From Prosthecobacter debontii (GTDB lineage: Bacteria > Verrucomicrobiota > Verrucomicrobiia > Verrucomicrobiales > Verrucomicrobiaceae), in NCBI GenBank assembly GCA_945860295.1, contig CAMAQH010000018.1, positions 1 through 64,000 of the forward strand: a stretch of 64,000 nucleotides of DNA, given 5' to 3'. Made by a program: the position numbers and the translations under genes. This document shows, piece after piece, positions 34,467 to 58,145 of this stretch (its first letter is position 1; the number at the start of each line of letters is the position of its first letter). Under the pieces are notes generated by a model. That model was not told the DNA's origin and ran no database searches. It saw only the letters and a program-made list of their open reading frames with translations.

Positions 34467-37400
34467 ATGAACATCGCCCTCCGCCCAGCAACACTGGAAG
34501 TTCTCAATGCCTTCCGCCAACGCCGTCAAAAGTTACTCAAATGGCGTGCGGCACTCGCTCTTGGCACGGTGGCTCTATTGGTGCTTCTCGTCATCGCTTT
34601 GCTGGATCGCGCTTGGTTCATGCCTGAGTCGATTCGCCCTTGGTTTTCTTTGGCCGCGTATGCAGGTGCCGCTTTTGCTGGTTGGAAAGTGGCGTGGCGT
34701 TTCATTTCCGAGGCGCGTGAGACATCCGGCGCAGCACGACTTCTGGAAATCGTAGTGCCTGCTATGCGGGAGCGCATGCTGTCAGCCGTTGAATTAGCTG
34801 AAGGCCACGGTTCCGAGTCTGAAGAATTTCGTGCTCGTCTTCAAGACGATGTCGCCGCTGAGGTTCAAAAAATATCACTCTGCTCCGTGCTTCCGCTGCG
34901 CTCTTTGAAATCATGGATCATGGGCTTCGGCCTCATGCTGGCGCTGATCATCGCACTTAGCTTCGTTTCGATGCTACATCTGCCGGGTTTTTTCGCTCGT
35001 GCCGCGATCCCTTTTGCTAACTTGGCTCGCCCCTCAAGCGTGGAGATCGTCATCGCCGCGCCGACGCCAGCGGACACGCTCGTGCCATTTGCCTCTGAGA
35101 TGGAAGTGATCGCCGACATCATCGGACCCAAACCTGATCGCGTACAGATCGAGACTCAAGCAGGCGACGCGAAATCACGTCTAACTGATATGCGTCTCTC
35201 GACTGGTAGTCGATACCAGAGCGTCGTCGCCATTGGCCAGATTGATCTGCGCTATCGCATCGTCGCCGCTGATGCCATCAGTTCGTGGTTTACACTAAGT
35301 GCTCGTGCACGGCCACGAGTGATCAAGTTTGTCAAAACCGTCGTCCCTCCTGCCTACAGCGGTTTGCCTGAAATCAAAGTTACCGATGATCAGGGTGACA
35401 TCGAAGCGCTTGAGGGCAGCATTGTTAAGCTCACACTAAAGCTCAACCAACCCATCTCCAAAGCCAGTCTGCTGATCAATCCCGACCACGCCGATCATCC
35501 TGAAGCCCTGCCGGCGCAGATCGCCACAGATGACGGTGTGAGCGCGGCACTTGAAGTGAAAGCAGACGTCGAATCTTGGCAGATGGCCCTTACTGCTAAG
35601 GAGACTGGCTTCACTAACGATGAATCATCGCCTTGGTCAGTCATTTCTACTCCTGATCTTCCGCCAGTCGTGCAGATCATTGAACCCATCGACCAGATCG
35701 AACTCCTCGCTGATGAAGCCGTGCGTCTCAGTGGTCTTGCTGGTGATGATGTGGGCCTCGAAAGAGTGCTGCTCGCGCACTCCATCAATGCCGCAAAGTG
35801 GAGCGAAAAAGAAGTCTCTGGCAAAACCGTTAAGGAAGCTCAGATCCAGACGCTGCTCGGACTCGCCCCGATGCAGGTCAAAGCCGGCGACACCGTGATG
35901 ATCAAACTTATCGCCATCGATCTCAAAGGCCAGCGAACCGAAACACAGCCGTTGCGTGTCATCATTCTCGAGCAAACCGTCAGCCCAGAACAGCGTCAGT
36001 GGGCCGCGCAGACAAGGCGCTTTGCCCAGCAGGCAGAGACTCTCGCTGAGGACGCGAAAGAGCTGCGCAAGAATATCGAGCAAGTCAGCAAGATCGAGAA
36101 GGCGAAGTCCAAAAATCCAGAAGCCGAACGCGATGCCAAGGACGCGCTAGCCCTTGCTCAGGGCGGACTCGAAAAGGTCACGGCCAAAGCAGATGATCTC
36201 TGGAAGGCGCTGCAAGAAACCGCCCGTACCGCGCCGACACATCTCGATGTCTTGGAGACCCAGCTTCTCGGCGAGCGCCTCGCGCACATGCGGAGTGATG
36301 CTTTGAGGGAGATGCAGAAAGTCATCACTGGTGATCTGGAAAAAACCGAGCCGCTCACGCGTGATGCTAGTGAAGCTCAAGCCGATGCGGACACCATCGC
36401 CAGCGCCGCGCGTGCTTTTGCCGCTGAGGACAATGCACGTCTCGTCGCCCAGCAGGCCCAGCAGTTATCACGTCAGGAGGCACTGCTCACGGATCAATCT
36501 TTATCTGCGAATCGCGATGCGACACAGCGTCCCAAATGGCAGGAGCAACAGCGCGCATCAATGGCGTCGAGTGAGATTTTGCGTCAGCAGATGGAGACTC
36601 TAAAGTCTCTCATCGATGGCGGTCAGCAGAACACGCTCAAAGAACATCAGAAGCAGATCGGTGAGGCACGGGCGGACCTTGAAGCCAGCCTCGACAAGCC
36701 TGATCAGGCTAAGAGTCCCGAGCATCTCTATGGTGCTTCCGACAACCTCCGTCAGCGCCTTGCCCGCGCTGCTGATGCGGCTCGTGGCATCGCTGAAAGT
36801 GCCGCGGCAAAATCAAATCAACTGCGCGAGTTAATCGCTCGGCAGGAGAATCCCGCCGTCGTTGCTTTGCAGGAAGCTAAGGCCGCTTTGAATCAAGCTA
36901 CTGCTGAGGCTAAAGATCCGAAGAAGCGCGAGCGTGAAGATCGTGATGGATTGAAGGCACCCGAGAAAGCCGTCAAAGAACTCGCGAGCGCCGCCAAGCA
37001 GCTCGAAGAGCAGGCAGCGCTACGTGAACAGAACACGATGAGTAACGATCAAGCCGCCCTTGATACCAATCGCGCTAGCCGCGCTGCCGATAAACTAGCG
37101 CGTGAAGTCGCCGAGACAAAAACGCCTGAAACCGCTGCGCAGGTTCAAGCCAAAGCCGAGCAACTCAGCAACGCTGTCCGCGCGCTCGAGGTTGACGCCC
37201 TCGCCCAAACGGCGATGAAGGCCATCGAAGAAGCCGCTTTTGACAGCGATCCCACCAAGTCTGCCACACCGACTCGTCCAGCCGAGCAGGCACGCGCTGC
37301 GGCTGAAGCCTTGAAGCAATTACCGGAAGCTCTGCGCCGCATGAGCAAGCCGGATCAGCAGATGGCAACTATTGCTCAACAAGCAACTGATCAGACGCGC

Positions 37401-43227: not shown

Positions 43228-44142
43228 ATGCCTGCATCAACTCCCAACGACGACGAACGTCTCAAGCGCATCCTTAAGCGTGTGAGGCGCATCGAGCTGA
43301 TCACTCGTGGCATGGTGAAGGAGACGCTGGGCGGTGCATATCATTCGCGTTTTAAAGGGCAGGGGATCGAGTTTGATGATTTCCGCGAGTATCAGCCTGG
43401 GGATGATGTTCGATTTCTGGACTGGAATGTGACGGCTCGCATGGACGAGCCTTTTGTCCGCAAGTACATCGAAGAGCGTGAGCTGACAGTGATGCTTGTT
43501 GTCGATGTCAGCGGCTCCGGCGACTATGGAAGTCACGAAGATAGCAAGCGTGAGCGTGCCGCAGAGGTCGCCGCGGTGTTTGCCTTTAGCGCCGTGCAGA
43601 ATCAGGACAAAGTCGGACTCATTCTCGTCTCTGATAAGGTGGAGCACTACCTGCCTGCGCGAAAGGGCGGTAGCCATGCGCTGCGCTGTTTGCGTGATAT
43701 TTTGAACATGCAGCCGAAGAGTCGGCGCACAGATCTGGCTCCAGCTTTGGACCTTGCTCTAGAGCGTGTCGCTCATCGTGCATTGGTCGTGGTCGTGTCA
43801 GATTTCTTCACTACGAATGATGCCTGGGAGAAGAGTTTGCGCTCTCTGGCTGCCAAGCATGATGTCGTGACAGCACAAATCACCGATCCGCGTGAGTGGG
43901 AACTGCCCAATGCGGGTCGTGTCTGTCTCGAAGATCCGGAAACAGGTGAGCAGCATATCGTTAATACATCACATCCTGCCGTGCGGCGTCAGTATGCGGA
44001 AAGGATCAGTGAACGGCAGGATTCTCTCAATCGCATGTTGAGAAAAAATGCCGTGGAGCGGCTCGATGTGCGCACGGACGATGACTACGTGCCTGCCTTG
44101 AAAGCCTATTTTCGCACACGTAAAAGGAGGAAGCGCTCATGA
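43228..44142 (+). CDS. DUF58 protein (VWA-like), MoxR partner
   Basis: 304 residues. ITRGMVKETLGGAYHSRFKG, FDDFREYQPGDDVRFLDWNVTAR and VDVSGSGDYGS are conserved in the DUF58 family, the last being the metal-binding MIDAS-like motif of a VWA fold. The length is normal. It ends in a 4-bp ATGA overlap with the next gene, which shows translational coupling. Confidence 0.9.
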   Translation: MPASTPNDDERLKRILKRVRRIELITRGMVKETLGGAYHSRFKGQGIEFDDFREYQPGDDVRFLDWNVTARMDEPFVRKYIEERELTVMLVVDVSGSGDYGSHEDSKRERAAEVAAVFAFSAVQNQDKVGLILVSDKVEHYLPARKGGSHALRCLRDILNMQPKSRRTDLAPALDLALERVAHRALVVVVSDFFTTNDAWEKSLRSLAAKHDVVTAQITDPREWELPNAGRVCLEDPETGEQHIVNTSHPAVRRQYAERISERQDSLNRMLRKNAVERLDVRTDDDYVPALKAYFRTRKRRKRS

Positions 44143-44678
44143 GCCTGTTCGCTTTTTTCATCGCACAAGCCCAGCAGCCAGAGGCACCGCCCCTGCAGCC
44201 TTTGCCGCACCCTGGGCTGCCTGATCCGACATTGATTACAACCGGTCCTAGTTGGTGGGTTTATGCTGCCGCTGCCATTTTAGTTATCTCTCTGCTGGCT
44301 CTTATCTTGTGGATGCTTTTCCGCCCTGCGAAAGTCAGTCCGCCACTGTTGAAGAAACCGTGGCAGACAGCGATGACTCGTCTGCGAGACATCCTCGCGC
44401 AAGCTGCCCTGAAGTCGCCTTCCGACACAGCTGCCGCAGTATCAGAAACGCTGCGCGTTTATTTCCTAGAGAGCTACAAAATCCCAGCGCCCTTTCGCAC
44501 TTCTCAGGAGTTGTTTCAGCGTGGTGGCATCCCGGCCACTTCCCTGCGCCTGACTCGCTATGCGGCATTGGCAGACATTTGGGATCAGCTCGCTTTTGCG
44601 CCTGTGCCTGCAAACTCAAGTGAAGCCTCGGCTCTCGTGCAAAAGGCCATTGAATCCTTAGAGGAAGACCGCCTATGA
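44139..44678 (+). CDS. DUF4381 small membrane protein
   Basis: 179 residues. A short N-terminal periplasmic segment, then a transmembrane helix near residues 44-64 (WWVYAAAAILVISLLALILWMLF), then a cytoplasmic helical domain. This is the DUF4381 pattern, always found between DUF58 and BatA genes in such operons. It overlaps both neighbours by 4 bp (ATGA). Confidence 0.82.
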   Translation: MSLFAFFIAQAQQPEAPPLQPLPHPGLPDPTLITTGPSWWVYAAAAILVISLLALILWMLFRPAKVSPPLLKKPWQTAMTRLRDILAQAALKSPSDTAAAVSETLRVYFLESYKIPAPFRTSQELFQRGGIPATSLRLTRYAALADIWDQLAFAPVPANSSEASALVQKAIESLEEDRL

Positions 44679-45700
44679 GCATTCCATTTCTTCGCGACAC
44701 GATCTTTGCTCATCCTACTTGGCTGCTCCTGCTGCTCGCGCTGCCTCTCATGGCTTGGTGGCGCGGCAGATTTGGTAAGGCTCCCACGATTGCTTTTTCG
44801 ACCACATTCCTGCTGCGTGATCTCGGCACTCCGGCCAAGTCTGCTCGCGGTGGTTTCACCATGGGTCTCGTGTTGCTCAGCCTTGCTGCCGCCATCTTTG
44901 CTCTGGCTCGCCCGCAGAAAGTCATTTCGCATGACGAAGACAACACAGAGGGCATCGCCATCTGTCTCTGCGTGGATGTTTCTCTCTCCATGTTGATCGA
45001 GGACTTCTACATCGGCGGCAATCCCGTGAATCGTATCACAGCGGCCAAGCGAGTCATGCGTGACTTCATTCGCGGCCGCACCAATGACCGCATCGGTATT
45101 GTCGCTTTTGCCGGAGCGCCCTATCAGCCTTGCCCACTCACGCTTCAGCGCGAGTGGCTTGAGGCAAATCTTGATCGAGTCCAAACGGGCGTCATGGAGG
45201 ACGGAACAGCCATCGGCTCAGGTCTGGCGGCCGCCTCCCGTCGGCTGGATAAAGAAACAGTCCCGAGCAAAGTCATCATTCTGCTGACGGATGGTGCCAG
45301 CAACAGCGGTAAGCTCAGCCCCCAAGACTCAGCCAAGCTCGCGGCCACGCTTGGACAAAAAATTTATACCATTGCCATCGGCACTCCTGGAGTTCACATG
45401 ATCCCGCTGCCAAACGGACGAGTCATCACCAGTGGCCGGCAGGAGTTCGATGAAGGCACGCTCCAAGAAGTCGCCCGCATCGGCAATGGCAGCTTCTACA
45501 TGGCTCAGGATCTGAGTGCTTTGCAGGAGATTTTCGACACCATCAACAAGCTCGAAAAGAAGGAGATCAAGCACCGCAATATCACCGAGACAGAGGAGCT
45601 TTTCTTCTACCCACTTGGAGCGGCAGCAACTCTACTTGGACTGGCCTTGTTGCTGCGGTTCACACTGCTCAATGCCTCCCCGATGGCTGTTGCCACCTGA
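44675..45700 (+). CDS. batA: BatA-type VWA domain membrane protein
   Basis: 341 residues. Two N-terminal helices (FAHPTWLLLLLALPLMAWW and GLVLLSLAAAIFALARP) are the BatA N-terminal domain. The VWA domain carries the MIDAS motifs DVSLS (about residue 105), EDGTAIGSG and LLTDGASNSG. A C-terminal helix follows (PLGAAATLLGLALLLRF). Bat proteins are linked to aerotolerance in Bacteroides and to envelope stress. The start overlaps the DUF4381 stop by 4 bp. Confidence 0.9.
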   Translation: MSIPFLRDTIFAHPTWLLLLLALPLMAWWRGRFGKAPTIAFSTTFLLRDLGTPAKSARGGFTMGLVLLSLAAAIFALARPQKVISHDEDNTEGIAICLCVDVSLSMLIEDFYIGGNPVNRITAAKRVMRDFIRGRTNDRIGIVAFAGAPYQPCPLTLQREWLEANLDRVQTGVMEDGTAIGSGLAAASRRLDKETVPSKVIILLTDGASNSGKLSPQDSAKLAATLGQKIYTIAIGTPGVHMIPLPNGRVITSGRQEFDEGTLQEVARIGNGSFYMAQDLSALQEIFDTINKLEKKEIKHRNITETEELFFYPLGAAATLLGLALLLRFTLLNASPMAVAT

Positions 45701-45712
45701 CCTCTTGCCACC

Positions 45713-47668
45713 ATGACTTTCCTCGCTCCGAAGCTCTTCTACTATCTCTTCGCGCTACCGCTCTTGGCGGTGCTGAAGCTTTGGGCGGACTGGCGCGCAC
45801 GCAAAACTCAGGCTTTGTTTACCGCACCTCGGCTACGTGACACACTCATTACGGGCGCCTCCACCTCACGCTCATGGGCCATCTTCACGCTGCAACTACT
45901 CGCGCTCGCCTGCTTCATCATGGCGCTAGCTAGGCCGCGCTGGGGCGAGGATAAAATCGTCCAACAGGAGTCCGGGCGTAATGTCATCATCGCCATCGAC
46001 ACCTCCCGCTCCATGTTGGCGAACGACATCGTCCCTGACCGCATCACGCGCGCCAGGCTTGCTGCCCAGGACGTGCTGGCCTCACTCAAAAATGATCGTG
46101 TCGGTTTGATCGCGTATGCAGGAAACGCTTACCTCCAAGCGCCGCTTACCACGGATCATGATGCGGTGATTGAGGCCATTCAGTCGCTCGACTTCACCGC
46201 AGTCCCGCGTGGCGGAAGTGAGATCGGACGCGCTCTGAAATTGGCCATGGAGACCTTTGAAAAAAGTCCTGCCAAGAATCACGGCCTGATCCTTTTTAGC
46301 GATGGCGGTGAGCCGGACATCCAGATCACCGAGTACTCGAAACAGGCCGCTCAGAAGAACGTGCTCGTGCTCACGGTCGGCGTCGGCACTGAGGCCGGAG
46401 CGCTCATCCCCGATCCTGATCCAGAGCGTGCAGGTGAGTTCATTCGTGATCAGCAGGGTAATGTGGTGAAGACGCGGTTGGAGCCAAAAGTGCTCCAAGA
46501 GATCGCCACTGCCACACACGGTCGTTACATGAAGCTCGGCTCACAGCCGCTCGCCGTTTCAGTGGTCAAGGATCTGCTTTCAGCCCTTCAGGCACAAACA
46601 AACGCGGCCAAGGAACTTGTGAAACCGATTGAGCGTTTTTATTGGCCTGTGTCTATGGGTATGCTGCTACTCGTTTGCGCTTGGCTCATTCATCCCACTT
46701 CCCGCATGAAAACCTACACACCCGCAATGGCTCTCCTGGCTTGGAGTTTTCTGACTCCCGGTGCTCAGGCCGATGACACTTTTTTGGGCTCGATCTTTGG
46801 CTCAATGCAGCCTGACCCCCAGCAAGCGCATCAAGCCTATAAAGACGGCGAGTTTGATCAGGCGGAAAAGCTCTATGAGGAGCAGATGAAGCAAAGTTCA
46901 TCTGTCCAGCAACAGCAGCAGCTTGCATTCGGCTACGGCAGCTCGGCTCATCAACGTAAAGACTATGACCGTGCCATCGATGGCTTTAGCCAGGCACTTG
47001 AGTCTGAGGATCAGGGAGTGCAAAACCATGCGCATCGCGGCATCGCCCATAGCCTCTATGACCAGGGTGATCGCGTCTTTTCAAAGCAGCCTAAGTTTTC
47101 ACTCAAAGCCTGGCGTGATAGTGTAAAGCACTTTGATGCCGCGCTGAAAATTGAGCCGGAAAATAAGGAGGTGAAGGAGAACCGCGACTTCGTGAAGAAG
47201 CGTCTCGATGAACTCCAGAAGAAAATGGACGAGCAAGAAGGCAAAGATGGCAAGAAGGGCGACAAAGGTAAAAAAGGCGACAAGGGCAAGAAGGGAGAAA
47301 AAGGCGACAAAGGCGAAGGTGAGGACGGCGACCAAGAAGGCGACGGAGATGGCGAAGACGAAGAAAAATCACGCAAAGAAAGCCTTGGTAAAAAAGAGGA
47401 TAAAGAAGGTGAAGAAGGCAAAGGCGGCGACAAAGACAAGGATCAAGAAGGCAAGCTCCAAGCCGGTAAAGATGGTGATCAAGAGAGCCAAGAAGCCCGC
47501 GAACGCCGTGAGCAACTCGAAGCCGAGAATGCCGAAAATCAAGAAAATGACGCCACCGGATTCAGTCGCAATGAAGCCCGCTCCTTCCTCCGCACTTATG
47601 CCGATGATCAAAAGAAAGCCATGCTCGTGCGTCCTCGAGATGCGCCGGTGAATGGCAAGGATTGGTAA
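45713..47668 (+). CDS. BatB-BatC fusion: VWA plus TPR with collagen-like charged tail
   Basis: 651 residues. Residues 1-330 are BatB: two N-terminal helices, a VWA domain with DTSRS, a serine in the second motif position (RGGSEIG) and FSDGGEPD, and a helix near 310-330 (WPVSMGMLLLVCAWL). Residue 332 begins MKTYTPAMALLAWSF, which reads exactly like a signal peptide ending GAQA, followed by TPR repeats of BatC. The last 150 residues are charged and repetitive, with GKKGDKGKKGDKGKKGEKGD collagen-like triplets. The internal signal-like stretch is best explained as a fossil start of a once separate batC. Confidence 0.85.
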   Translation: MTFLAPKLFYYLFALPLLAVLKLWADWRARKTQALFTAPRLRDTLITGASTSRSWAIFTLQLLALACFIMALARPRWGEDKIVQQESGRNVIIAIDTSRSMLANDIVPDRITRARLAAQDVLASLKNDRVGLIAYAGNAYLQAPLTTDHDAVIEAIQSLDFTAVPRGGSEIGRALKLAMETFEKSPAKNHGLILFSDGGEPDIQITEYSKQAAQKNVLVLTVGVGTEAGALIPDPDPERAGEFIRDQQGNVVKTRLEPKVLQEIATATHGRYMKLGSQPLAVSVVKDLLSALQAQTNAAKELVKPIERFYWPVSMGMLLLVCAWLIHPTSRMKTYTPAMALLAWSFLTPGAQADDTFLGSIFGSMQPDPQQAHQAYKDGEFDQAEKLYEEQMKQSSSVQQQQQLAFGYGSSAHQRKDYDRAIDGFSQALESEDQGVQNHAHRGIAHSLYDQGDRVFSKQPKFSLKAWRDSVKHFDAALKIEPENKEVKENRDFVKKRLDELQKKMDEQEGKDGKKGDKGKKGDKGKKGEKGDKGEGEDGDQEGDGDGEDEEKSRKESLGKKEDKEGEEGKGGDKDKDQEGKLQAGKDGDQESQEARERREQLEAENAENQENDATGFSRNEARSFLRTYADDQKKAMLVRPRDAPVNGKDW

Positions 47669-47690
47669 CCCATTAGCAACCCACGACCGC

Positions 47691-50228
47691 ATGAATTTTT
47701 TAGTTTTCAGTCTTCTGTTTTTAGTTACTAGCATCGCGCAAGCCGCCACCGTTCGTGCTTACATTCAGCCGGAGAAAGCGCGCCCAAATCAGACGATCAA
47801 CTATGTGATCACCGTGCAGGACGGCCAGGTACAGAGCTTACCGAACCTGCGTTTTCCACTTCAAATTGGGCAGACGAGCGCTGTGTCCACCTCTCAGCAG
47901 CTCAGCATTGTTAATGGTAAGCAGAGTGTGTCACTACAGCTTTCTTGGGGCATCAGCGCTAGTGAGCCGGGTGAGTTTGTGATCCCGACGCAGACCATCA
48001 TTGTAGATGGCCAACCAGTCACCACCAATGAAGTCAAACTGACAGTCGAGCAGGGCGGAGCCGCCTTCCCAAATGCCAATGGTGGCCAAGCAGCCGAGGA
48101 TAAAAATGTCCCCATCCTCCAGATCGAACTGGGCAAGAAAGAGATCTACCAGGGAGAGGTCGTGCCGGTGAATTGCAGTCTCTATGTGCCACGCCAGACA
48201 CAGCTGCGTCGGCTCGGACTCATCGAGATCGCAAAGAGTGATTTCGCCATCTCGCGTTTCCCTCAGACCAATGAGCAAACAAGCACAGTGATCGATGGCC
48301 TTGGTTATTACGTGCTTACTTTCCGTAGCACTCTATCCTCACTCCGCACCGGCGATTTGAAAGTCGGCCCCGCCACACTTGAACTCCTTGTCGAGGTGCC
48401 GATGGAAGGTCAGCAGCAGCGTCAGATGTTCCCTCCCGGATTTCCTCAGGGCTTCTTTGGTGGTGCGTCCGAGCCACGCAAATTGGTGGTCAAAAGCCAA
48501 CAGGTGACTCTGAAGGTCCTACCGCTGCCAGCCGAGGGTAAGCCCGCAAACTTCAGCGGAGCCGTGGGTGAATTCCAGATGACCGCCAATGCCACTCCGA
48601 CTGATCTTACTGTGGGTGATCCCATCTCTGTCGAGCTAGCGGTCACGGGTGCTGGTAATTTTGATGCACTCACCACGCCGTCTCTCGTCTCCAGCGGTGG
48701 ATGGAAAATGTATCCTGCAAAGCGCTACAACATTGAGGGTCAGTTGGACCAAAATCAAACGCCTACTCTGGAGCGCAAGGTTGGTTATTCTCAGGTCATG
48801 GTGCCAGAGGCTGTGCATCCCACCGTGCCGCCGTTTGAGTTGAATTACTTCAGCCCAGCCGAGAGAAAATACGTCACTCTGCGCAGTCAGCCCATTCCTC
48901 TAAACATGCGGCCTGCGCCAGTCACAGCCGCGACTGAATCTGCTGCTGGTGGAACCACCGTGTTGGCAGATTTGCCACCGCCCGTCGTCGATCCACAGGC
49001 AGACATCACCGACATCTTGGTGAATCCTTCAGCCACATCACGCTGGATCACCCCCACAGGTATGGTGCTGCTGACGAGCAAAGCTTTCTGGACTGCACAG
49101 GCCGTGCCAGTTGGACTGTTCGCACTCGCCGGTTTACTGGCCTTCACTCGCCATCGCCGTGAGGAGCGGAATGCAGGCAGGGCAGGTGAGCTACGCGCCG
49201 CTTGGAGTGGAGTCGGAGATTCGAGCACAGACGATCATGAATTCCTGCGTCGCGCCGCCCAATTCATCCAGACCACGCAGACTGATGCGTCGATCAAAGA
49301 CTCTTCCGTCAGAGCTATCCTCGACCGCTACACTCACACCAATTTCACTGCCACACCTGCTGCTCCTCTCAGCAACTCTGAACGCCGTGCCATGCAGCAA
49401 ACGCTGTCCGATCTGCTTCGGAATGCTTTGACTAAAGTAAGCGTCATCGCTCTCGCTTTGTTCTGCCTTGCCAGCGCCGAAGCTGCTGACACAAAACCTG
49501 CTACCACTCCGGATGAAATCTATCGCGATGCCATCAGCGAATTGGAAAAGGGCAACTTCACTAAGGCTCAATACCTCGCTGAATCACTGACGAAAAAGCA
49601 CCCACCCCAGCTCAGCGCTGAAGTCTTTGAAGTCATCGGTCATGCTCGCTATCGCCAGAAAGATCTTGGCCGCGCTGCCCTCTGGTATCAGCGCGCGCAG
49701 CTTGTGGATGGCCGCACGCCTGAGCTTCGGCAAAATCTCCGTCATCTCTTTGAGCGTTCGCGTTACCTGACCTTCGGAAATGACTCATTCTTCACCGCGG
49801 CCAGCACTTGGCTCACGCTCAATGAATGGCTTATTCTCGCTGCGACTGGACTTTGGATGATCTTTCTCGCCCTCGCTTGGCGTCTCTTCACCGGCCAGCG
49901 CAGTGCTGCTTGGCCTATTATTGTTGCTGCAGTCGGTGTGCTCATTCTCTTGCCTGCCGGCGCCTTTGCAGCACTACGCCCAGATAGTGCGGATCGTGTC
50001 GATGGTATCAGCATCGTCACCCAGTCCGACGTGAGTTCCTACACCGCCGCCACCGTCACCAGCGGCAGCGTCATTACTTTGCCTCCTGGAAGTCAAATTC
50101 GCACCCTCGAAAAACGCGGCACTTGGCTCTATGTGGAAATCCCCAGCCAGCCCGAGAACCTACGCGGCTGGGTCGAAGCCGGAGCTGTCACCCCGCTTTG
50201 GATCTGGGACACGAAGCTTGTGCCATGA
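47691..50228 (+). CDS. BatD-BatE fusion: oxygen-tolerance protein plus TPR and SH3
   Basis: 845 residues from ATG at 47691. A signal peptide (MNFLVFSLLFLVTSIAQA) leads into tandem Ig-like BatD domains (YIQPEKARPNQTINY) to about residue 430, then a helix near residue 465 (VGLFALAGLLAFT). Near residue 580 a second signal-like stretch (LTKVSVIALALFCLASAEA) is followed by a TPR (EIYRDAISELEKGNFTKAQYL), two helices and a C-terminal SH3-like domain (LPPGSQIRTLEKRGTWLYVE), which is BatE. The internal signal suggests that two genes merged. It is the last gene of the moxR operon. Confidence 0.85.
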   Translation: MNFLVFSLLFLVTSIAQAATVRAYIQPEKARPNQTINYVITVQDGQVQSLPNLRFPLQIGQTSAVSTSQQLSIVNGKQSVSLQLSWGISASEPGEFVIPTQTIIVDGQPVTTNEVKLTVEQGGAAFPNANGGQAAEDKNVPILQIELGKKEIYQGEVVPVNCSLYVPRQTQLRRLGLIEIAKSDFAISRFPQTNEQTSTVIDGLGYYVLTFRSTLSSLRTGDLKVGPATLELLVEVPMEGQQQRQMFPPGFPQGFFGGASEPRKLVVKSQQVTLKVLPLPAEGKPANFSGAVGEFQMTANATPTDLTVGDPISVELAVTGAGNFDALTTPSLVSSGGWKMYPAKRYNIEGQLDQNQTPTLERKVGYSQVMVPEAVHPTVPPFELNYFSPAERKYVTLRSQPIPLNMRPAPVTAATESAAGGTTVLADLPPPVVDPQADITDILVNPSATSRWITPTGMVLLTSKAFWTAQAVPVGLFALAGLLAFTRHRREERNAGRAGELRAAWSGVGDSSTDDHEFLRRAAQFIQTTQTDASIKDSSVRAILDRYTHTNFTATPAAPLSNSERRAMQQTLSDLLRNALTKVSVIALALFCLASAEAADTKPATTPDEIYRDAISELEKGNFTKAQYLAESLTKKHPPQLSAEVFEVIGHARYRQKDLGRAALWYQRAQLVDGRTPELRQNLRHLFERSRYLTFGNDSFFTAASTWLTLNEWLILAATGLWMIFLALAWRLFTGQRSAAWPIIVAAVGVLILLPAGAFAALRPDSADRVDGISIVTQSDVSSYTAATVTSGSVITLPPGSQIRTLEKRGTWLYVEIPSQPENLRGWVEAGAVTPLWIWDTKLVP

Positions 50229-50288: not shown

Positions 50289-51320
50289 CTATTTATAAGC
50301 CGAAACCGGCTTTGGCATGACGCCGAGTTCCTTGTAATTGAAGCCGCTTTCGAGCGGTTGGTAGCTGCCGACGATGTCCATGCTGCTTGCAGCATTGATG
50401 GCGTATTCCATACCCATGCTCCAATGGGCGGCGTTGATGATGAGGCGGCGAAGGCCCGCGTTTTCGAGATCGTGGGCGCTGCCCATGGTGGAATGAAATA
50501 CACGCGCTCTTTTGCCGCCGCTGGTCTGCCACGTTTTGAACCACGCGACCGGCAGCGGCTCAAGTTGGGTGTTTGGCAGATCGTTGTGCTTGCGCCCCAT
50601 GAGTGGCTGGCCCCAGACGAGAGCGGTGCAGTCGGAGGGTAGGCTGGCGCCCTCTTTGTAGGTGCGATAGACATCCGAGTTTCCCCAGATGTCGGTGACG
50701 CCGGTGAGGATGGGGTGGCTCATCTGCTCTTCGACGATGATGCCACGCGTGGAGTCGGCGTGCCATCGGCCATGATGCCCCATGAAGGCTCCGCCAAGCA
50801 CATCCGTGCCCCAGTTGACTTGTTTGCCGTTGATCTTGTAAGGCAACTGGCTGTGGAAAGCGTGGTTCCCTGTTCGCAACGACATGAAAGGTTTGCCTGA
50901 GTCGATATATTTTACGATGAGTTCGAGCTCGTTCATCGGTAGCGTGAGCAATCGCGTGAAAAAAATTACGAGGTCGGCGGAGGCGAGGTGCTCGAGCCCT
51001 GGAATGTGATGCTGCTTGAACTCGCTCTCTTTACCCTTCTCGGGATAAACCGGCATCGTGGGATCCACCTCGCCCTTTTCATTCACGCCGAAGAGCACGG
51101 TGCAATCGAAGCCATGACGCGTGCTCAGGATCTTCGCTACCATTGGCATCGACTGTTCACTGCGGTATTCTTGGTCGGCCGTGATGAGCACGATGTGCTT
51201 GCCTTTGCCTGGGCCTTCGGCACCGGAATACGTTAGCCATTGCGGGCTATCAGGAACGGGATGCGCCATAACTGGCAGCGCGATAACAAAGCAAAGGATG
51301 AGGATGAGGTTCTTGAGCAT
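50289..51320 (-). CDS. ThuA-like exported protein
   Basis: 343 residues with a signal peptide (MLKNLILILCFVIALPVMA). HIVLITADQEYRSEQSMPM and the later GRWHADSTRGIIVEEQMSHPI, NAAHWSMGM fit the ThuA (trehalose utilisation) family, a class I glutamine-amidotransferase-like fold. In PVC bacteria ThuA-like proteins are often near or fused to c-type cytochromes. It is the last gene of the sulfatase-cytochrome operon, six bases after the propeller gene. Confidence 0.87.
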   Translation of the reverse strand: MLKNLILILCFVIALPVMAHPVPDSPQWLTYSGAEGPGKGKHIVLITADQEYRSEQSMPMVAKILSTRHGFDCTVLFGVNEKGEVDPTMPVYPEKGKESEFKQHHIPGLEHLASADLVIFFTRLLTLPMNELELIVKYIDSGKPFMSLRTGNHAFHSQLPYKINGKQVNWGTDVLGGAFMGHHGRWHADSTRGIIVEEQMSHPILTGVTDIWGNSDVYRTYKEGASLPSDCTALVWGQPLMGRKHNDLPNTQLEPLPVAWFKTWQTSGGKRARVFHSTMGSAHDLENAGLRRLIINAAHWSMGMEYAINAASSMDIVGSYQPLESGFNYKELGVMPKPVSAYK

Positions 51321-51326
51321 GGCAGA

Positions 51327-52808
51327 TTAGTTCAAAGGGATTTCATTCACCGTGTAATAGGCCTTGGTGTGCAGAAGCGGCTCGCCGGTGTTGGATTTCA
51401 TCTTGCCGAGATCAAAGTCGTGGATGTGGCCTTTCTCGAACTTCTTCAGCAGAACCATCACGGAGAGTCCATCTGAGGCGGGGACAGCCTTCGTCACATG
51501 CGACGTCGTTTGATCCACCTCGGGGCTGCCGTAACCGGCGTGGTAGATGTGCGTGTAAGTCGTAATGGTATAGCTTTCCGTGTTCCCAGCGATTTGTGGA
51601 TCGACAGGTTTGGTGAAGGTGATGAGGAAGCCGTTCTTCTTGATGTTGATCTCTTTGATCTCAAATGGCGTCACACCATTCCAGTCGATGCGCTGGATGG
51701 CAAAGGGCTCTGTGCCGCGCACCGGCCACTGCGTATTGGTCGTGAATCCACCAACGATGAGCTGCCCCTTCGGCGAAAACTCCACATTCATGATGCCCGA
51801 CGCGAGTCCTTCTCGGAATGGATAACATGCGCCCTGCCACACACCGTTGATCTCCTCTGTCGTGGCTCGTATGACGATGCTGAGCGTGTAGTCGCCAAGA
51901 AAAATCTGGTTCTCGAACAGGCCGAACTTGCCGCCGGTTTGGTTAAGCCGAAAGCCGGAAATGGAGCGACCCATTTTCATATATGGAAAGCGCACCGCTG
52001 GTGGCACGAACTCCTTCACGCGTTTCCTTTCGATGTGAATACGCGAGTCGCTGTTCGGCTTCACGGGCTCCTTCATGCCAGGCACGAAGGGATACCAATT
52101 GTAACTTGCCGGATGCCCGAGAAATCCGCCGGGCTTCAGATGCTTCAGCGAGCAACAGCCATTCCACGGCCCCTGACTTTCGATGGCAAACATCGCGCCC
52201 TGCGCGTTCGCACCCACGCCACCGGGGCTACGCAATCCACTGCACACCGGGATCATTTCCCCATCCGGCGTGACTTTCACCGCCCAGCCGCGAAACAGGC
52301 TGTGCGATTCATAGGAACCACTCAGACCCAGCGCCACCCAGATATTTCCCTCGGGATCATGCTTCGAGGCAAAAGCAAACTCATGCCCTTCCGCATACCC
52401 CCAGTTGTTCGCCAGCGTCTCAAAGCGATCCGCGACACCATCGCCATCCAGATCCGAAATGCGCGAGACCTCACCAAACGAGGTCGTCGTCATCGCGCCA
52501 TCCTTCCAGGCGAGCGAAAAAATCTCATCCTGACCACTAGCGAACAAGTGATAGTCCGGCTGCGGCGGCGAATCGAAGACACCCTTGATGAAGTAAATAT
52601 CGCCACGCCGCGTGCCCACCGCTAGCCGTCCATCCGGCAGGACCTCTAAGCCACCAGGCCGCATTGGCACCGTCGCCGGGATCGGCACATTCACGATGGG
52701 ATAATACTTCGCCTCCTCCGCAGCCGTGCCCCACATTTCACCAAGCTCCTCGGCTTGAAGAACGGACGTTAAGGCCGCAAGGACGCTGATGGTTCGGTGC
52801 CCTACCAT
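51327..52808 (-). CDS. Exported PVC-type beta-propeller (DUF7133-like) protein
   Basis: 493 residues with a signal peptide (residues 1-18). PGGLEVLPDGRLAVGTRRGDIYFI, SRISDLDGDGVADRF and GVGANAQGAMFAIESQG are typical of the six-bladed glucose/sorbosone dehydrogenase-like propellers abundant in Planctomycetes and Verrucomicrobia. No haem motif is seen in this protein. A C-terminal Ig-like part (EIKEINIKKNGFLITFTKPVD) follows. The start codon overlaps the cytochrome gene stop by 7 bp, so electrons could pass from this protein to that cytochrome (inference). Confidence 0.8.
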   Translation of the reverse strand: MVGHRTISVLAALTSVLQAEELGEMWGTAAEEAKYYPIVNVPIPATVPMRPGGLEVLPDGRLAVGTRRGDIYFIKGVFDSPPQPDYHLFASGQDEIFSLAWKDGAMTTTSFGEVSRISDLDGDGVADRFETLANNWGYAEGHEFAFASKHDPEGNIWVALGLSGSYESHSLFRGWAVKVTPDGEMIPVCSGLRSPGGVGANAQGAMFAIESQGPWNGCCSLKHLKPGGFLGHPASYNWYPFVPGMKEPVKPNSDSRIHIERKRVKEFVPPAVRFPYMKMGRSISGFRLNQTGGKFGLFENQIFLGDYTLSIVIRATTEEINGVWQGACYPFREGLASGIMNVEFSPKGQLIVGGFTTNTQWPVRGTEPFAIQRIDWNGVTPFEIKEINIKKNGFLITFTKPVDPQIAGNTESYTITTYTHIYHAGYGSPEVDQTTSHVTKAVPASDGLSVMVLLKKFEKGHIHDFDLGKMKSNTGEPLLHTKAYYTVNEIPLN

Positions 52809-55462
52809 TGGTATTCGAGGGTGAGGGTGGAGCGACCTTTGGGCAGCGTGAGGGGGATAAGGACTTCGCCCTCGCGGGTGATGGCTTTGTGGTCGCTGGT
52901 GAGGCGGAGTTGTAGCGGGTTGATCTTGAAGCTGCGCTCCGAAACCGTGCTGATTTTATCGCCGCAGGCAGCGCGGAAATAGAAGGGTTGTGATGCCACT
53001 GGTGCATCAAACTGGAAGCTGCGTTTGAAGTATGCTTTGCCGTCCTTGGCGCGCACATCCTCGAAGAACTCCTCCACGGAGATGTTGCCGTATTGATAGC
53101 GGAACGTCGGCCTGCGCTGGGCGTTGAGCTGATAGCCGCGATACTGGTAGCCGTGGTCTTGCGGAAAGGTGTGGTTGGTCTTACCTTTCGATGGCCATGC
53201 GTCATCCAAGGACTTCAAAGTATGAAACGGGATGCCCGCCGGGAAGGCGATGCGATCTGTGCCTTTGGCGCGGAAGGATCCGAGATCGACATTGGCGAAG
53301 TCGCCTTTCCAAAGCATGCGCAGAGCCATCTCTTCAGAATCAAACGCGAGATTGAGTCGCGCAGGATAACCGACACCGATCCCGCGATAACCTGCCGTGC
53401 CACGCCCTCGACACATCTCCGTGACATCGGCCACACGTAGTTCATTCGACGTGCGGGCGAGTCCCAGTGGATTCTTCGCTTGTGTGCCGTCTTCAAGATA
53501 AGTCCACAAAGCCTCGATCTGCTGCGCGGTGTCGCCGCCGAGGATGTTGGGTCGAATGGATTGCCCGCCGGGCCAGTAGCTAGGCATGACCACCGTCGGA
53601 TGAAAGCGCTGCGGCTGTCGCAGATAGAGATGGAACCAGCTCTTCTGTAGTCTCTCGGTCGTATGCACAATATCGAGCGCACCCGCGGCTGACTTCTGCC
53701 CGTTCCAATCATGACAGGCGATGCAACTGAAGCCTGTGACACCGATCATTTCATAACCCGCGTTCTTCGACTCTTGGATGTTTGCGATCTTGGGGAACGT
53801 GACGTTTTCGAGGTGATCCACTCTGCCAAACAGCTCCACCAAATGGCCTATATTTGCCTCGCCGAACTGTGGCATCGCCGCATCGAGGTAGTGGCGCTGA
53901 CGTTGGCCATGCAAGAGCACCGCTGAGATCCAAGATGGTGTGAGCTTGGCCCCCACATCCGTCAACGGCGGCGGCAGACGCCCCTGATCGCCTAGCGCCG
54001 GAGCGGTGCCAATAAAGATGGCATTTCGATCAGTCGCGATGTCACCGAGGCCGCTGCGCTCATGACATGCGATGCAGTTGAATGTGGCGAACGTCTTGTG
54101 CAGCCGCTCTTTGTCCGTGAGCTGTTTCGTTTCTATTTGTGGCAGTGCTTTCGCGATCAAGGTGCGTTGTTCTGCACTCAGATCAAAACGCGCCCAAGAG
54201 CCGGCCACATCGCTGAGGCAACCGCGACCAGCATCGAGCTGCGCCAAGGCGATGGAAGGCGCGGACTGCACGGACTGCACGCCAACATCGTCATGGCACT
54301 TTGCACAGCCAAGTTTCGCGAAATGCTCGCGCCCACGCGTTGCGAGATAGGCATTCACCTTGAGCGGCGCAAACGCTGGAATCAGCTTATTGGAGATTGA
54401 CAGCATCGAAGATGGAATCGCTCCTCGCGCGAACTGCGGACCTTCCATTTCAAACGTGAGCCCTGGCTCACGGCCCGTGTGAAAATAGACCAACTCGATC
54501 TTCTGCCATCCAGCCACGAATTCCGCTGAGCCCTGCAACTTCTTCACGCCTCGCCGATCCTTTGGCTCTTCGTTGACGATTTCTTTGCCATCAAGAGAGA
54601 GAGCACCACCGTTCATCGTGAGATAAAACGTGTAGCGCCCGGCAGTAGCGATATTCAGCCAGCCTTCGAACTTGATCGCCGTGTGCTGACGCAACTTGCC
54701 GAAGGCGGCCAAAGAAAAATCCTTCGTGTAATCCGCACGTTCCGGCTCCACTTCTGCACTGGCGATTCCTTGCCAAATCTGACCGCGATACATCGTGTAG
54801 CTTAGATGGCCAGGCACTCGCGTTTCACGCAGCAGATAGTGCGCGATGCAGTCGAGATCGCGATCCTGCAATCGCATGTCTGGCATTCGTCCCGATGGAC
54901 GACTTGCATGAGGCTGGCGCAAAAAGTCGACCAAACTCTTGAGGCTGTATTTTTTTTCCAGCGCACCGAGCGGCACGGAAGTCTGCTTCAGCGTCTCAGC
55001 GCCCTTTGCATCGCGCGGCGAGTGACAGGCCGCGCAGCCGCGAGAATGAAACAGCTTTTCACCCAAATTTGCCGCCACCGCATCCGGCGGCTTCAAGGCG
55101 AAGTCGTTCTTCTTCAACGAGAGCAAGAAGTGAGTGATCTCCGTGGCAATTGGCCCTTTGTTCGCCTTTGGCAGCACATCCGGCATCGTTGTGCCCGGCT
55201 TTGTGCCATGTGGATCACGAATGAAGGTCTCAATGTAAGTTGAATTCACCCGCGAGCCAATCTCCGCCAGTCTCGGTGCCTTTTTTGACTGCGCTGCAAA
55301 CGATGCCGTGCTCGCATGACAGGCTACGCAGTTCATTTCTTCGATCAAGACCTGCCCCTTGAGCTCCGCATCAAGCTGACTGGTTGCCATGCCAGGAAGG
55401 CTCACTTCCGCTGAAGCCATCGAGCTGGCGCACAGCGCCACTATGAGTAATTTGGATTTCAT
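52802..55462 (-). CDS. Five-haem c-type cytochrome with PA14-like domain
   Basis: 886 residues with a signal peptide (MKSKLLIVALCASSMASA). Five CXXCH motifs occur: CVACH, CAACH, CAKCH, CIACH and CIACH. Between the second and third lies a PA14-like region (FEGWLNIATAGRYTFYLTMNGG, SLDGKEIVNEEP), a glycan-binding fold. The C-terminal part has no recognised domain. It should carry electrons in the periplasm or at the outer membrane. Sulfatase precedes it by 18 bases and the propeller overlaps its end by 7 bp. Confidence 0.85.
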   Translation of the reverse strand: MKSKLLIVALCASSMASAEVSLPGMATSQLDAELKGQVLIEEMNCVACHASTASFAAQSKKAPRLAEIGSRVNSTYIETFIRDPHGTKPGTTMPDVLPKANKGPIATEITHFLLSLKKNDFALKPPDAVAANLGEKLFHSRGCAACHSPRDAKGAETLKQTSVPLGALEKKYSLKSLVDFLRQPHASRPSGRMPDMRLQDRDLDCIAHYLLRETRVPGHLSYTMYRGQIWQGIASAEVEPERADYTKDFSLAAFGKLRQHTAIKFEGWLNIATAGRYTFYLTMNGGALSLDGKEIVNEEPKDRRGVKKLQGSAEFVAGWQKIELVYFHTGREPGLTFEMEGPQFARGAIPSSMLSISNKLIPAFAPLKVNAYLATRGREHFAKLGCAKCHDDVGVQSVQSAPSIALAQLDAGRGCLSDVAGSWARFDLSAEQRTLIAKALPQIETKQLTDKERLHKTFATFNCIACHERSGLGDIATDRNAIFIGTAPALGDQGRLPPPLTDVGAKLTPSWISAVLLHGQRQRHYLDAAMPQFGEANIGHLVELFGRVDHLENVTFPKIANIQESKNAGYEMIGVTGFSCIACHDWNGQKSAAGALDIVHTTERLQKSWFHLYLRQPQRFHPTVVMPSYWPGGQSIRPNILGGDTAQQIEALWTYLEDGTQAKNPLGLARTSNELRVADVTEMCRGRGTAGYRGIGVGYPARLNLAFDSEEMALRMLWKGDFANVDLGSFRAKGTDRIAFPAGIPFHTLKSLDDAWPSKGKTNHTFPQDHGYQYRGYQLNAQRRPTFRYQYGNISVEEFFEDVRAKDGKAYFKRSFQFDAPVASQPFYFRAACGDKISTVSERSFKINPLQLRLTSDHKAITREGEVLIPLTLPKGRSTLTLEYQW

Positions 55463-55480
55463 GAAATGGAGTCAAGCGCA

Positions 55481-56992
55481 TCAAAGGGTGGGCGCTGCAC
55501 TGCGACCTGAATCGATGCTTGTATCAAGCAATGCTTTTAATTCGGCGACGATTTCTGGATGCTTGAAATAGAGATTTGTTGTCTCGCTAGGATCGGCGTT
55601 GAGGTTGTAGAGTTGGCCGTGCGCATCCGGAGCGGTTTCGGGCAGGGCGTAAGGTTTGAGTTCACCTTTGTCGTAATTGTTTCCGCCGGAGTCTCGGTGG
55701 TCGATGTATTTCCAGTGACCACGACGAATCGAAAGTGTGCGCCGCCCACCAAAGGCCTGAGTTAGCAGATAAGGGCGGATCGGAGTCGCCGCCTTGCCTT
55801 CGAGCACGGGAAGCATGTTAAAACTGTCCTCAGCCGCATCAGGTGGCAGCACTGCGCTCGTGATCGAGGCCACAGTGGCCATCACATCCGTGAGGCAGAT
55901 CATTTGTTCACTAACAGCGCCGCCACTCACCCGGCCTGGCCAGCGGACAATGAGCGGCACACGATGACCACCTTCCCACGAGTCGCGCTTCACGCCGCGC
56001 CAAGGTCTGGCTCCGTCATGATCATGATCAGCGCGCATGTGGACGACGCTGGCGGTCTCTGGGCCATTGTCGCTGGAGAGAAGAATGAGCGTGTTGTCCG
56101 CGATGCCGAGGCGTTCGAGGTCTTTCATCAACTCGCCTACGATGTGATCGAACTCGTGGATGAAGTCGCCATGCGGACCAGCTTGTGTTTTGTCTTTAAA
56201 CTCAGGCGCGGCGAAGGATGGCAAATGCACGGCGTGAGTGGCGTGGTAGAGAAAGAAGGGTTGGTCTGGCGAAGTGCGCTGGTGTTGCTCGATGAATTGG
56301 CGGCTCTTCTTGAGGAAGGTCATGTCCAACTCCTCGATCTGGAAGTCCGGCGCGATGAAGCCTGGACGGCAATCATTCGCATATGGGTGCTTGGGTAGCT
56401 TTGATTTGTTGATGAGGCGCGTTGGTGGAACCGGGATGTGGTCGCCATCAATGAAGGCGTAGAGCCAGTCGGTCCCAGGACAGCATGCCGTGCCGAAGAA
56501 GCGGTCAAAACCATGATCGAGAGGCCCTCCCTCGATCCGGCGTGAGTAATCAATGCGCTGCACGTCCTCCAATTTGCCGCTGTGAATCGCGTCGCCTGCC
56601 TTGTCACGAAAGGTCAGTCCCACATGCCATTTGCCAAAGGCGGCAGTGGCGTAGCCTTGCTTCTTCAGCATCGCGGGAAGCGTGAGGCGACTCGGTGCGA
56701 TCAAAGACGGTCCGCCCGATCCTTGAAATACGGTGCCGCCATTCGGTACGCGAAAGGCCATCTGGCCCGTCATGAGGCTGTAGCGCGAGGGCGTGCAGAC
56801 GGTGGCGGGACTATGCGCATCGGTGAACCTCATGCCTTCACTCGCCAGTTTGTCGAGATTTGGCGTGGGCACTTTTGAGTCGGCATTGTAGCAGCGCACA
56901 TCGCCGTAGCCTAGATCGTCGGCGAGGATGAGAAGGATGTTGGGTGGTGCTGCATTGAGCGTGATGGCAGCCAAGAGGAAGATCCATTTCAT
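55481..56992 (-). CDS. Exported sulfatase
   Basis: 503 residues from ATG at 56992, with a signal peptide (MKWIFLLAAITLNA). NILLILADDLGYGDVRCYN supplies the Asp-Asp calcium ligands, and CTPSRYSLMTG is the C-x-P-x-R motif in which the cysteine is converted to formylglycine. GKWHVGL and SSDNGPE follow. The enzyme hydrolyses sulfate esters, probably on carbohydrates. A longer upstream open frame to 57244 has no signal and is rejected. It is the first gene of a four-gene operon. Confidence 0.92.
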   Translation of the reverse strand: MKWIFLLAAITLNAAPPNILLILADDLGYGDVRCYNADSKVPTPNLDKLASEGMRFTDAHSPATVCTPSRYSLMTGQMAFRVPNGGTVFQGSGGPSLIAPSRLTLPAMLKKQGYATAAFGKWHVGLTFRDKAGDAIHSGKLEDVQRIDYSRRIEGGPLDHGFDRFFGTACCPGTDWLYAFIDGDHIPVPPTRLINKSKLPKHPYANDCRPGFIAPDFQIEELDMTFLKKSRQFIEQHQRTSPDQPFFLYHATHAVHLPSFAAPEFKDKTQAGPHGDFIHEFDHIVGELMKDLERLGIADNTLILLSSDNGPETASVVHMRADHDHDGARPWRGVKRDSWEGGHRVPLIVRWPGRVSGGAVSEQMICLTDVMATVASITSAVLPPDAAEDSFNMLPVLEGKAATPIRPYLLTQAFGGRRTLSIRRGHWKYIDHRDSGGNNYDKGELKPYALPETAPDAHGQLYNLNADPSETTNLYFKHPEIVAELKALLDTSIDSGRSAAPTL

Positions 56993-57323: not shown

Positions 57324-58145
57324 ATGATCTCGAACAAAACTGAAATAGATGGTTTTCAAGTGAGTCTGACTGCGGCCATCTCCGCTGAACGCCGGGCGTT
57401 GCTGAAACATCGGCTTTACGGACGATTGCGAACGCTGGAGCACCTGGCAGTGTTCATGGAGCACCATGTATTTGCTGTGTGGGATTTCATGTCGCTGCTG
57501 AAGGCGCTACAGGTGCGCCTGACGTGTGCGAGCGTGCCCTGGCTGCCGCAGGGCAAAGCGCAGGTGCGCCGTCTGGTAAATGAGATTGTTCTGGGTGAGG
57601 AGAGTGATGCCTTGCCGGAAGGCGGGGTGGCGAGCCACTTCGAGCTTTATCTTCATGCCATGGACCAAGCCGGGGCGGACACGGCGCAGGTGGAGAATTT
57701 CATCCGTCTGCTTCAGTCCGGGCAGACAGTGGACGCAGGGCTGAAGCAGGTCGGTGTGCCGGCGGCGGTTGCGGCATTCGTGCGGCAAACGTTTGAGGTG
57801 ATCGATCGGGGGCGGGCGCATGAAATCGCCGCAGCCTTCACCTACGGACGGGAGGATTTAATTCCGGAGATGTTTACGCAACTGGTGCATGGGCTTGAGA
57901 GTCAATTCCCCGGCAAGTTGGCGACGCTGCGTTACTACCTGGATCGGCACATCGAATTGGATGGTGACGAGCACGGCGAAATGGGCCGCCAAATGGTGAG
58001 TCTGCTGTGCGATGGAGACCCGCGCCGCGAGCAGGAGGCCACGCAGGCCGCGGTGGCAGCGCTGCAATCTCGAATACTGCTCTGGGACGCGATTGCCCTG
58101 GCGGTGGAACAACTAGATGAAGAGGAGCTGATTCAGCCCTTGTGA
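57324..58145 (+). CDS. DUF3050 (haem-oxygenase-like fold) protein
   Basis: 273 residues. LRTLEHLAVFMEHHVFAVWDFMSLLKALQ near the N-terminus, then HFELYLHAM and YYLDRHIELDGDEHGEM, match DUF3050. The spacing of E, H, D and H residues resembles the haem-oxygenase-like diiron oxidases, so a metal site is likely (inference). The start at 57324 fits the family. It is divergent from the sulfatase operon and is not adjacent to any biosynthetic cluster. Confidence 0.82.
   Translation: MISNKTEIDGFQVSLTAAISAERRALLKHRLYGRLRTLEHLAVFMEHHVFAVWDFMSLLKALQVRLTCASVPWLPQGKAQVRRLVNEIVLGEESDALPEGGVASHFELYLHAMDQAGADTAQVENFIRLLQSGQTVDAGLKQVGVPAAVAAFVRQTFEVIDRGRAHEIAAAFTYGREDLIPEMFTQLVHGLESQFPGKLATLRYYLDRHIELDGDEHGEMGRQMVSLLCDGDPRREQEATQAAVAALQSRILLWDAIALAVEQLDEEELIQPL

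Follow-up and report, generated by a model that had tools for sequence, protein, structure and literature searches.

Cytochrome and propeller genes recur together in Verrucomicrobiota and Planctomycetota, with ThuA as a frequent partner and a sulfatase as an optional neighbour

The window analysed here is a stretch of 64,000 bases of Prosthecobacter debontii DNA (bases 1-64000 of contig 18, CAMAQH010000018.1; the genome measures 4.68 Mb in 75 contigs), and in it we studied four open reading frames, all on the minus strand at window positions 50289-56992, which encode in transcription order a sulfatase, a five-haem c-type cytochrome, a propeller protein and a ThuA-domain protein. In Verrucomicrobiota and Planctomycetota the cytochrome and the propeller recur together as a module, comparison of loci supports ThuA as a real partner of this pair, and the sulfatase is a facultative neighbour. 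The gene set is a specific, conserved and split form of a known but unexplained haem-propeller kind of the PVC (Planctomycetota, Verrucomicrobiota and Chlamydiota) bacteria. Our preferred reading, to which we give a probability of about 45%, is a periplasmic carbohydrate-oxidation module in which the propeller would oxidise a sugar, the cytochrome would take up the electrons, ThuA would act next and the sulfatase would be an addition. An earlier note on this DNA had proposed one joint sugar pathway for all four products; the part that concerns the propeller, the haem protein and ThuA is supported, but the sulfatase is not a fixed member.

Conservation and layout of the gene pair and of ThuA

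When named genomes were searched with the propeller alignment, at least 581 relatives came up, and the best 80 were kept as loci; where the titles of these records name a lineage it is Verrucomicrobiota or Planctomycetota, and a few say only 'bacterium'. The propeller has a cytochrome upstream in 74 of the 80 loci, and the two are no more than 200 bases apart in 69. Exactly five CxxCH motifs are present in 67 of the 74 upstream cytochromes, and of the other seven, six are cut by contig ends and one (L096) cannot be translated in a single frame. Among the six loci with no upstream cytochrome, two start almost at the propeller gene (L129 and L155), two hold 1.3 kb (L109) and 2.4 kb (L111) of upstream sequence, and two (L112 and L080) lack the cytochrome despite 10 kb of it. 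BLAST clusters over the 80 loci are led by the cytochrome (72), the propeller (67) and ThuA (29), with general sulfatases next (19). BLAST cluster 4 appears to consist of antisense frames of the propeller, as judged from the coordinates of its representative.

We divided the 80 loci by propeller identity into 50 closer (at least 65%) and 30 more distant ones (below 65%). Among the closer loci the cytochrome is within 200 bases in 42 and overlaps the propeller in 16, and ThuA is directly downstream in 30; if we consider the 45 closer loci with at least 1300 bases downstream, ThuA is directly there in 28. Among the more distant loci the cytochrome is within 200 bases in 27, and a ThuA of at least 50% identity occurs somewhere in seven and directly downstream in one. 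ThuA is found upstream in four loci (L136, L139, L150 and L159). Because the gene pairs are also seen in further families of the order and in Planctomycetota-labelled records, their association is more than chance. In a survey of 189 genomes of the order, with four candidates scored per genome, a cytochrome match of some kind occurs in 167, many of them partial, and among the matches listed 34 genomes have a close copy, taken as about 49% identity or above and with fragments counted.

In the window the four genes follow one another on one strand with gaps of 18, -7 and 6 bases, as the earlier note had stated and as the frame coordinates confirm. The negative gap is a stop/start overlap of 7 bases, ATGGTAG (52802..52808, minus strand), at the junction of the cytochrome gene (52802..55462, minus strand, 886 residues) and the propeller gene (51327..52808, minus strand, 493 residues), and translation of the two may be coupled through it. 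At 45 of the 74 loci the string ATGGT is found where the cytochrome match ends, a raw count that carries no chance level. The set is isolated, with a convergent BatD-like gene on the plus strand that ends at 50228 and a divergent DUF3050 gene on the plus strand that starts at 57324, and the layout supports an operon-like set of four genes. Co-transcription is not shown, because promoter-like matches (2 against 3.3 expected) and terminator-like matches (7 against 7.4 expected) are at shuffle level. All four products begin with a hydrophobic stretch (best nine-residue hydropathy 2.4-3.8), which agrees with an earlier claim of four signal peptides, and the products are probably secreted.

Cytochrome, propeller and the proposed oxidation

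The description of the cytochrome as a five-haem protein holds, with exactly five CxxCH motifs at residues 45, 143, 386, 463 and 580. Its Pfam matches are Cytochrom_C (PF00034, 93.3 bits) and, below their cut-offs, PA14 (16.5 bits, cut-off 24) and DUF6797 (19.9 bits, cut-off 24.9); no PSCyt1-3 or PSD profile match was found in Pfam at E 0.01. Besides the cytochrome c parts, the structure model (mean predicted local distance difference test score, pLDDT, 86) shows a PA14-fold insert (about 215-363) and a DUF6797-like C-terminal beta domain (about 678-886), and single-chain relatives of the cytochrome carry a clear DUF6797. Met-Pro at 93, 193, 530 and 626 is kept in 40 of 40 aligned cytochrome rows, and four of the five haems may have these motifs as their distal ligands. 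For the C-terminal part the fold search also lists the YidC periplasmic domain and GH38 chains (Z about 12), which we record as a lead only, and the cytochrome frame of one locus (L043) has an N-terminal extension of 649 residues with no Pfam match.

Because the PA14 profile is below its cut-off, the PA14 assignment rests on the fold search, in which the model matches PA14 (PF07691) chains 6qe7 (Z 17.6, residues 217-357) and 6xa5 (Z 15.5, residues 209-362), and sugar-bound PA14 domains at Z of about 15. PA14 entries fill the VIA-align list for the cytochrome, and the absence of other families from this list is uninformative. Glycan-binding PA14 domains have an Asp-Asp-Gly loop with an Asp-Asp calcium motif. 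The Asp-Asp motif was not found in the cytochrome domain, which has Asn-Gly-Gly in its place (N in 24 of 24 ungapped rows, G in 23 of 24 and G in 24 of 24), with a gap in 16 of the 40 rows. An earlier suggestion that a PA14-like domain binds glycan and links the redox protein to its substrate is supported as to the fold but not as to the link with a substrate.

The propeller appears to be a distant relative of DUF7133 and the PVC-type dehydrogenase propellers, and its model (pLDDT 89) has a fold of the pyrroloquinoline quinone (PQQ) sugar dehydrogenase class. The nearest chains are 3a9g (Z 29.3, root-mean-square deviation 2.8, 300 residues aligned) and, among six sugar dehydrogenase entries at Z 27.4-29.3, 2g8s (Z 27.4); among the 50 entries listed, soluble glucose dehydrogenase (sGDH, 1qbi) has Z 24.5, and lactonases and other propellers have Z 21.9-24.2. 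At the sequence level there is a sub-threshold match to the NCBIfam ScyD/ScyE family, PF07995 was not matched in Pfam at E 0.01, and a sequence profile search of the PDB with the propeller alignment found just designed Pizza propellers and PknD-like chains over short stretches. The ThuA protein (50289..51320, minus strand, 343 residues) matches PF06283 with 38.4 bits against a cut-off of 33.4; the same kind of PDB search with the ThuA alignment gave no match.

Fused proteins join the same parts elsewhere. ThuA and propeller share one open frame in three loci (L070, L071 and L072), and these fused proteins match DUF7133 over the cut-off (29.5-30.4 bits). A protein of 1586 residues (L076) carries ThuA, 3keto-disac_hyd, LamG, cytochrome and DUF6797 in a single chain and has a propeller-like end (24% identity) without a DUF7133 match. 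Within the genus, a protein of 1877 residues (L053) combines a sulfatase that is 80% identical to the one in the window with LamG, cytochrome and DUF6797 (the cytochrome and LamG below cut-off) and a propeller-like end (26%). Four proteins of the P. debontii genome join ThuA and DUF7133; cytochrome c is added in three and a cupredoxin in one, and two of the matches, ThuA in L183 and the cytochrome in L180, do not reach their cut-offs. At a further locus of this genome (L079) a 39% propeller paralog adjoins a protein with 3keto-disac_hyd, cupredoxin and PA14 domains, the end of which resembles the end of the window's cytochrome (29%). This locus (8388-10712 of L079, minus strand) is possibly a copper version of the module.

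We infer electron transfer from a propeller-bound substrate from the pairing, the gene overlap and the five haems, and a link to sugars from the propeller fold and the fusion partners. The conserved pair, the dehydrogenase-like fold and the sugar-domain fusions support the view that the propeller and the haem protein look like a sugar-oxidising pair. The central pocket of the propeller would bind a sugar or a glycoside for the protein to oxidise, and the five-haem cytochrome, presumably co-translated with the propeller, would be its dedicated electron acceptor and would pass the electrons to the respiratory chain. ThuA would then process the oxidised sugar, most likely a keto sugar and perhaps a 3-keto sugar. 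The keto-sugar step is suggested by the ThuAB and 3-keto-disaccharide hydrolase systems: in the available parts of the two papers, 3-keto sugars are connected with a thuAB-type operon (PMC4765114, citing work of 2013) and 3-keto-disaccharide hydrolases are thought to act after C3 oxidation (PMC9007349).

Several observations weigh against oxidation by this module. In Pfam the propeller matches DUF7133 alone, below the cut-off (21.5 bits, cut-off 27), its TIGR02604 score is likewise too low (16.3 bits, cut-off 122.2), and an hhalign comparison with GSDH proteins gives a probability of 2.9-3.5%, insignificant overall. A directly downstream ThuA is missing from 17 of the 45 closer loci where 1300 bases or more follow the propeller, and from 28 of 29 more distant loci, and in one genome of the genus (G125, locus L080) the cytochrome and propeller are about 11 kb apart. 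A close cytochrome occurs in just 3 of the 39 listed genomes of the genus (G000, G125 and G145), so that its distribution is patchy. The 3-keto step depends on distant fusions and the ThuAB precedent. Two further points, the cofactor contacts and the activity of a related protein, are taken up below.

We aligned the PQQ site by sequence (coordinates were not superposed) with Escherichia coli YliI and two genomic GSDH proteins, and counted conservation over 43 aligned propeller rows; because the whole-profile comparison with GSDH proteins is insignificant, the register of this alignment rests on short motifs. Arg193-Ser194 align with the Arg-Asn that flanks the quinone in sGDH, and His142-Glu143 fall at the catalytic His with an ambiguity of one residue, since it is Glu143 that stands opposite the YliI His. 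The roles of sGDH His144, Arg228 and Asn229 at the catalytic site and quinone are taken from the accessible portion of PMC6881810. His142, Glu143 and Arg193 are each kept in 43 of 43 rows, and 42 of the 43 have Ser where sGDH has Asn229. YliI LKDK is aligned to YTLS, and YliI RIRDV to GIMNV. At positions 308, 338 and 340, which align with the PQQ contacts Lys377, Arg406 (which we take to be the likely equivalent of an Arg described as conserved in sGDH in PMC6881789) and Arg408, Lys and Arg are absent in all 43 rows; position 308 is Thr, Ser or Gly, 338 is Gly and 340 is Met, Leu or Gln, with a Lys at 309 in one row. For Lys377 and Arg408 the role as PQQ contacts follows PMC6881789, as far as its available text goes. 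Since Lys is missing at 308 and Arg at 338 and 340 throughout, the alignment makes classical PQQ-type oxidation doubtful. PqqC was found in none of 33 genomes and PqqE over cut-off in none of the 33, but no control genome was over cut-off either and the absence is unproven.

Hydrolysis is the main rival to the oxidation reading. The propeller may act on glycosides, oxidised or native, as a hydrolase, an eliminase or a lactonase, with oxidation taking place elsewhere and the cytochrome serving as a separate carrier or sensor. Lac161_ORF7, a protein of Verrucomicrobia that combines a TIGR02604 propeller with HEAT and cytochrome c parts, acted on lactose when purified (Km 1.8 mM) and is called a novel beta-galactosidase, a hydrolase and not a dehydrogenase, in the part of PMC5342196 available to us. 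The missing PQQ contacts and the PqqC and PqqE counts agree with such an activity, and lactonase propellers align well too (Z 23-24). However, sugar dehydrogenases are the best structural matches, and the tight, often overlapping linkage to a five-haem cytochrome in two phyla is hard to explain without electron transfer. We consider hydrolysis less likely than oxidation.

The sulfatase and the surroundings of the gene set

The sulfatase (55481..56992, minus strand, 503 residues) is of the S1 type (PF00884, 171.6 bits) and has the C-x-P-x-R formylglycine motif as CTPSR at residue 66, GKWH at 120 and SSDNG at 306. Its start is taken as the ATG at 56992, and the open frame extends to 57244. The top-scoring solved chains are 7oze, 7p26 and 6s20, and these do not fix the substrate.

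In the same 189 genomes, with eight candidates scored per genome, a close sulfatase relative (at least 60% identity) occurs in 58, and in 7 of these 58 it lies on the same contig and within 10 kb of a cytochrome match (G000, G145, G181, G102, G133, G066 and G056), the proximity having been tallied by eye against the cytochrome matches listed. Among the 34 genomes with a close cytochrome, 17 hold a sulfatase of at least 60% identity, which is near the cytochrome in three. We reject the sulfatase as a fixed member on these counts, and it is an optional add-on of the module. The earlier note had named scattering of the four genes in relatives as a point that would tell against a joint set: cytochrome and propeller hold together, and ThuA with them in many closer loci, but the sulfatase alone is scattered. 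Counter to this rejection, a distant propeller-like match (25-26%) lies near the sulfatase in 3 of 20 sulfatase neighbourhoods (L168, L171 and L177), and in L171 it shares an open frame with the sulfatase. The operon in the window would have gained the S1 enzyme as an addition, and its substrate for that reason probably bears a sulfate ester.

A strong enrichment of sulfatases near the cytochrome-propeller pair was also rejected. The flanks of the 80 loci contain 35 sulfatase genes, or 3.9 per 100 kb, against 2.1 per 100 kb for first-look candidates in G000, a ratio of about 1.8 that is rough because a single genome, searched in another way, supplied the background; at least one sulfatase is found in 23 of the 80 loci against about 15 expected.

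These figures bear on the possibility that the four genes are a local packing of very numerous PVC families, with no joint pathway that includes the sulfatase. The P. debontii genome holds 20 ThuA matches (19 over cut-off) and 100 first-look sulfatase candidates, and the 7 of 58 genomes and the ratio of about 1.8 to background are in line with packing. Against it, a locus of another family (L015, genome G181) repeats the order sulfatase-cytochrome-propeller with the same 7-base overlap; its contig opens within the sulfatase and breaks off within the propeller, and the distance from sulfatase to cytochrome is 17 bases if the first possible start is used and about 44 if the place aligned with the start in the window is used. 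L143, the single one of the 80 named loci with a sulfatase of at least 60% identity, groups cytochrome, propeller, one other gene, sulfatase (74%) and ThuA, and the giant proteins of L053 and L171 join this sulfatase in frame with DUF6797-type or propeller-like parts. Less close sulfatases (49-52%) adjoin the cytochrome in G043, G068 and G155. Weighing both sides, we find packing rather improbable.

Some loci were set aside. In L127 (4332-6806) and L061 (5041-7944) an open frame joins a shortened propeller to a shortened sulfatase; some 50 residues are missing from the C-terminal end of its propeller part, as is the beginning of the sulfatase profile, and the frame is probably a deletion joint and was not used as evidence. 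L044 (G028) has a mere 40-residue sulfatase piece ahead of the cytochrome, which is weak and was not used either.

Other sulfatase neighbourhoods have companions of their own. One BLAST cluster is shared by 12 of the 20 sulfatase neighbourhoods, and its single tested member is a serine dehydratase of the alpha type; within the genus a gene of this cluster (L162 tested) directly follows the sulfatase in L162, L164, L165, L166, L168, L175 and L177. The next gene in L165, L166, L168, L175, L176 and L177 belongs to a PSCyt3/PSD4/PA14 cytochrome cluster (L165 tested). The FGE-sulfatase domain family has 13 matches in the P. debontii genome, and in L069 (12688-14589, plus strand) a glucuronyl-esterase domain is joined to an FGE-sulfatase domain in the second gene past the propeller.

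Around the set in the window, a Bat-operon-like gene run (43228-50228, plus strand; BatD matched by profile, the rest recognised by eye) is convergent with it, and the DUF3050 protein (57324-58145, plus strand, 333 bits), which also has a haem-oxygenase-like match, is divergent from the sulfatase. Further away, a Gln/Ala-rich protein of 1523 residues (34467-39038, plus strand) is encoded across a strong AT skew at 36-38 kb; no tandem repeats were found at 35-41 kb of the window.

Relation to known systems

The closest known kind is that of the PVC-type heme-binding CxxCH or Piru_Ver_Nterm proteins (TIGR02604, DUF7133), such as Lac161_ORF7, which share a propeller with c-type haem, often ThuA, and the same bacterial groups. 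In contrast to these proteins, the propeller and the haem protein are here encoded by separate genes, the propeller is below both cut-offs, and a PA14 insert and an end resembling DUF6797 accompany the five haems of the cytochrome. The ThuAB and 3-keto-disaccharide hydrolase (PF06439) pathways share with our set a ThuA-family protein beside a presumed oxidising enzyme, and a distant PF06439 fusion; the four genes include neither a ThuB-like NAD dehydrogenase nor a PF06439 gene. Neighbourhoods of PSCyt cytochromes and sulfatases in freshwater Verrucomicrobia, for which an action on carbohydrates by a mechanism other than glycosidases has been proposed (PMC5615132, in its available part), likewise place cytochromes beside sulfatases, whereas the present cytochrome lacks the PSCyt and PSD matches. 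The earlier note knew of no described pathway with this gene order, and a search of the available text of open-licence PubMed Central papers found no description of the gene set, but sulfatases next to PVC cytochromes are thus already in print.

The soluble PQQ sugar dehydrogenases (sGDH and Asd/YliI; PF07995) share the propeller fold (Z 23-29), the Arg, and a His at or beside the catalytic place, and differ in that our propeller has no PF07995 match, no Lys or Arg at the PQQ-carboxylate contacts and an extra C-terminal part (about 380-493). A classical PQQ-dependent aldose dehydrogenase that uses the cytochrome as acceptor and PQQ imported from outside, to which the fold, the retained Arg and a His at or one residue beside the catalytic place would lend themselves, is very doubtful given the Ser at the place of Asn229, the substitutions at all three contact positions, and the lack of PqqC and of PqqE over cut-off, which is itself uncontrolled.

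These bacteria carry tens to hundreds of sulfatase candidates by first-look counts, and many ThuA and haem-propeller proteins that have no known job. The cytochrome-propeller-ThuA unit offers a small and tractable test of oxidative glycan breakdown by PVC bacteria. A bolder form of the oxidation reading, which we judge improbable, would make the propeller a PQQ-independent sugar oxidoreductase that passes electrons straight to the cytochrome, or shares an active site with it, and supplies 3-keto sugars to ThuA. If this were true, the propeller would represent a new class of periplasmic glycoside oxidase that extends across Planctomycetota and Verrucomicrobiota.

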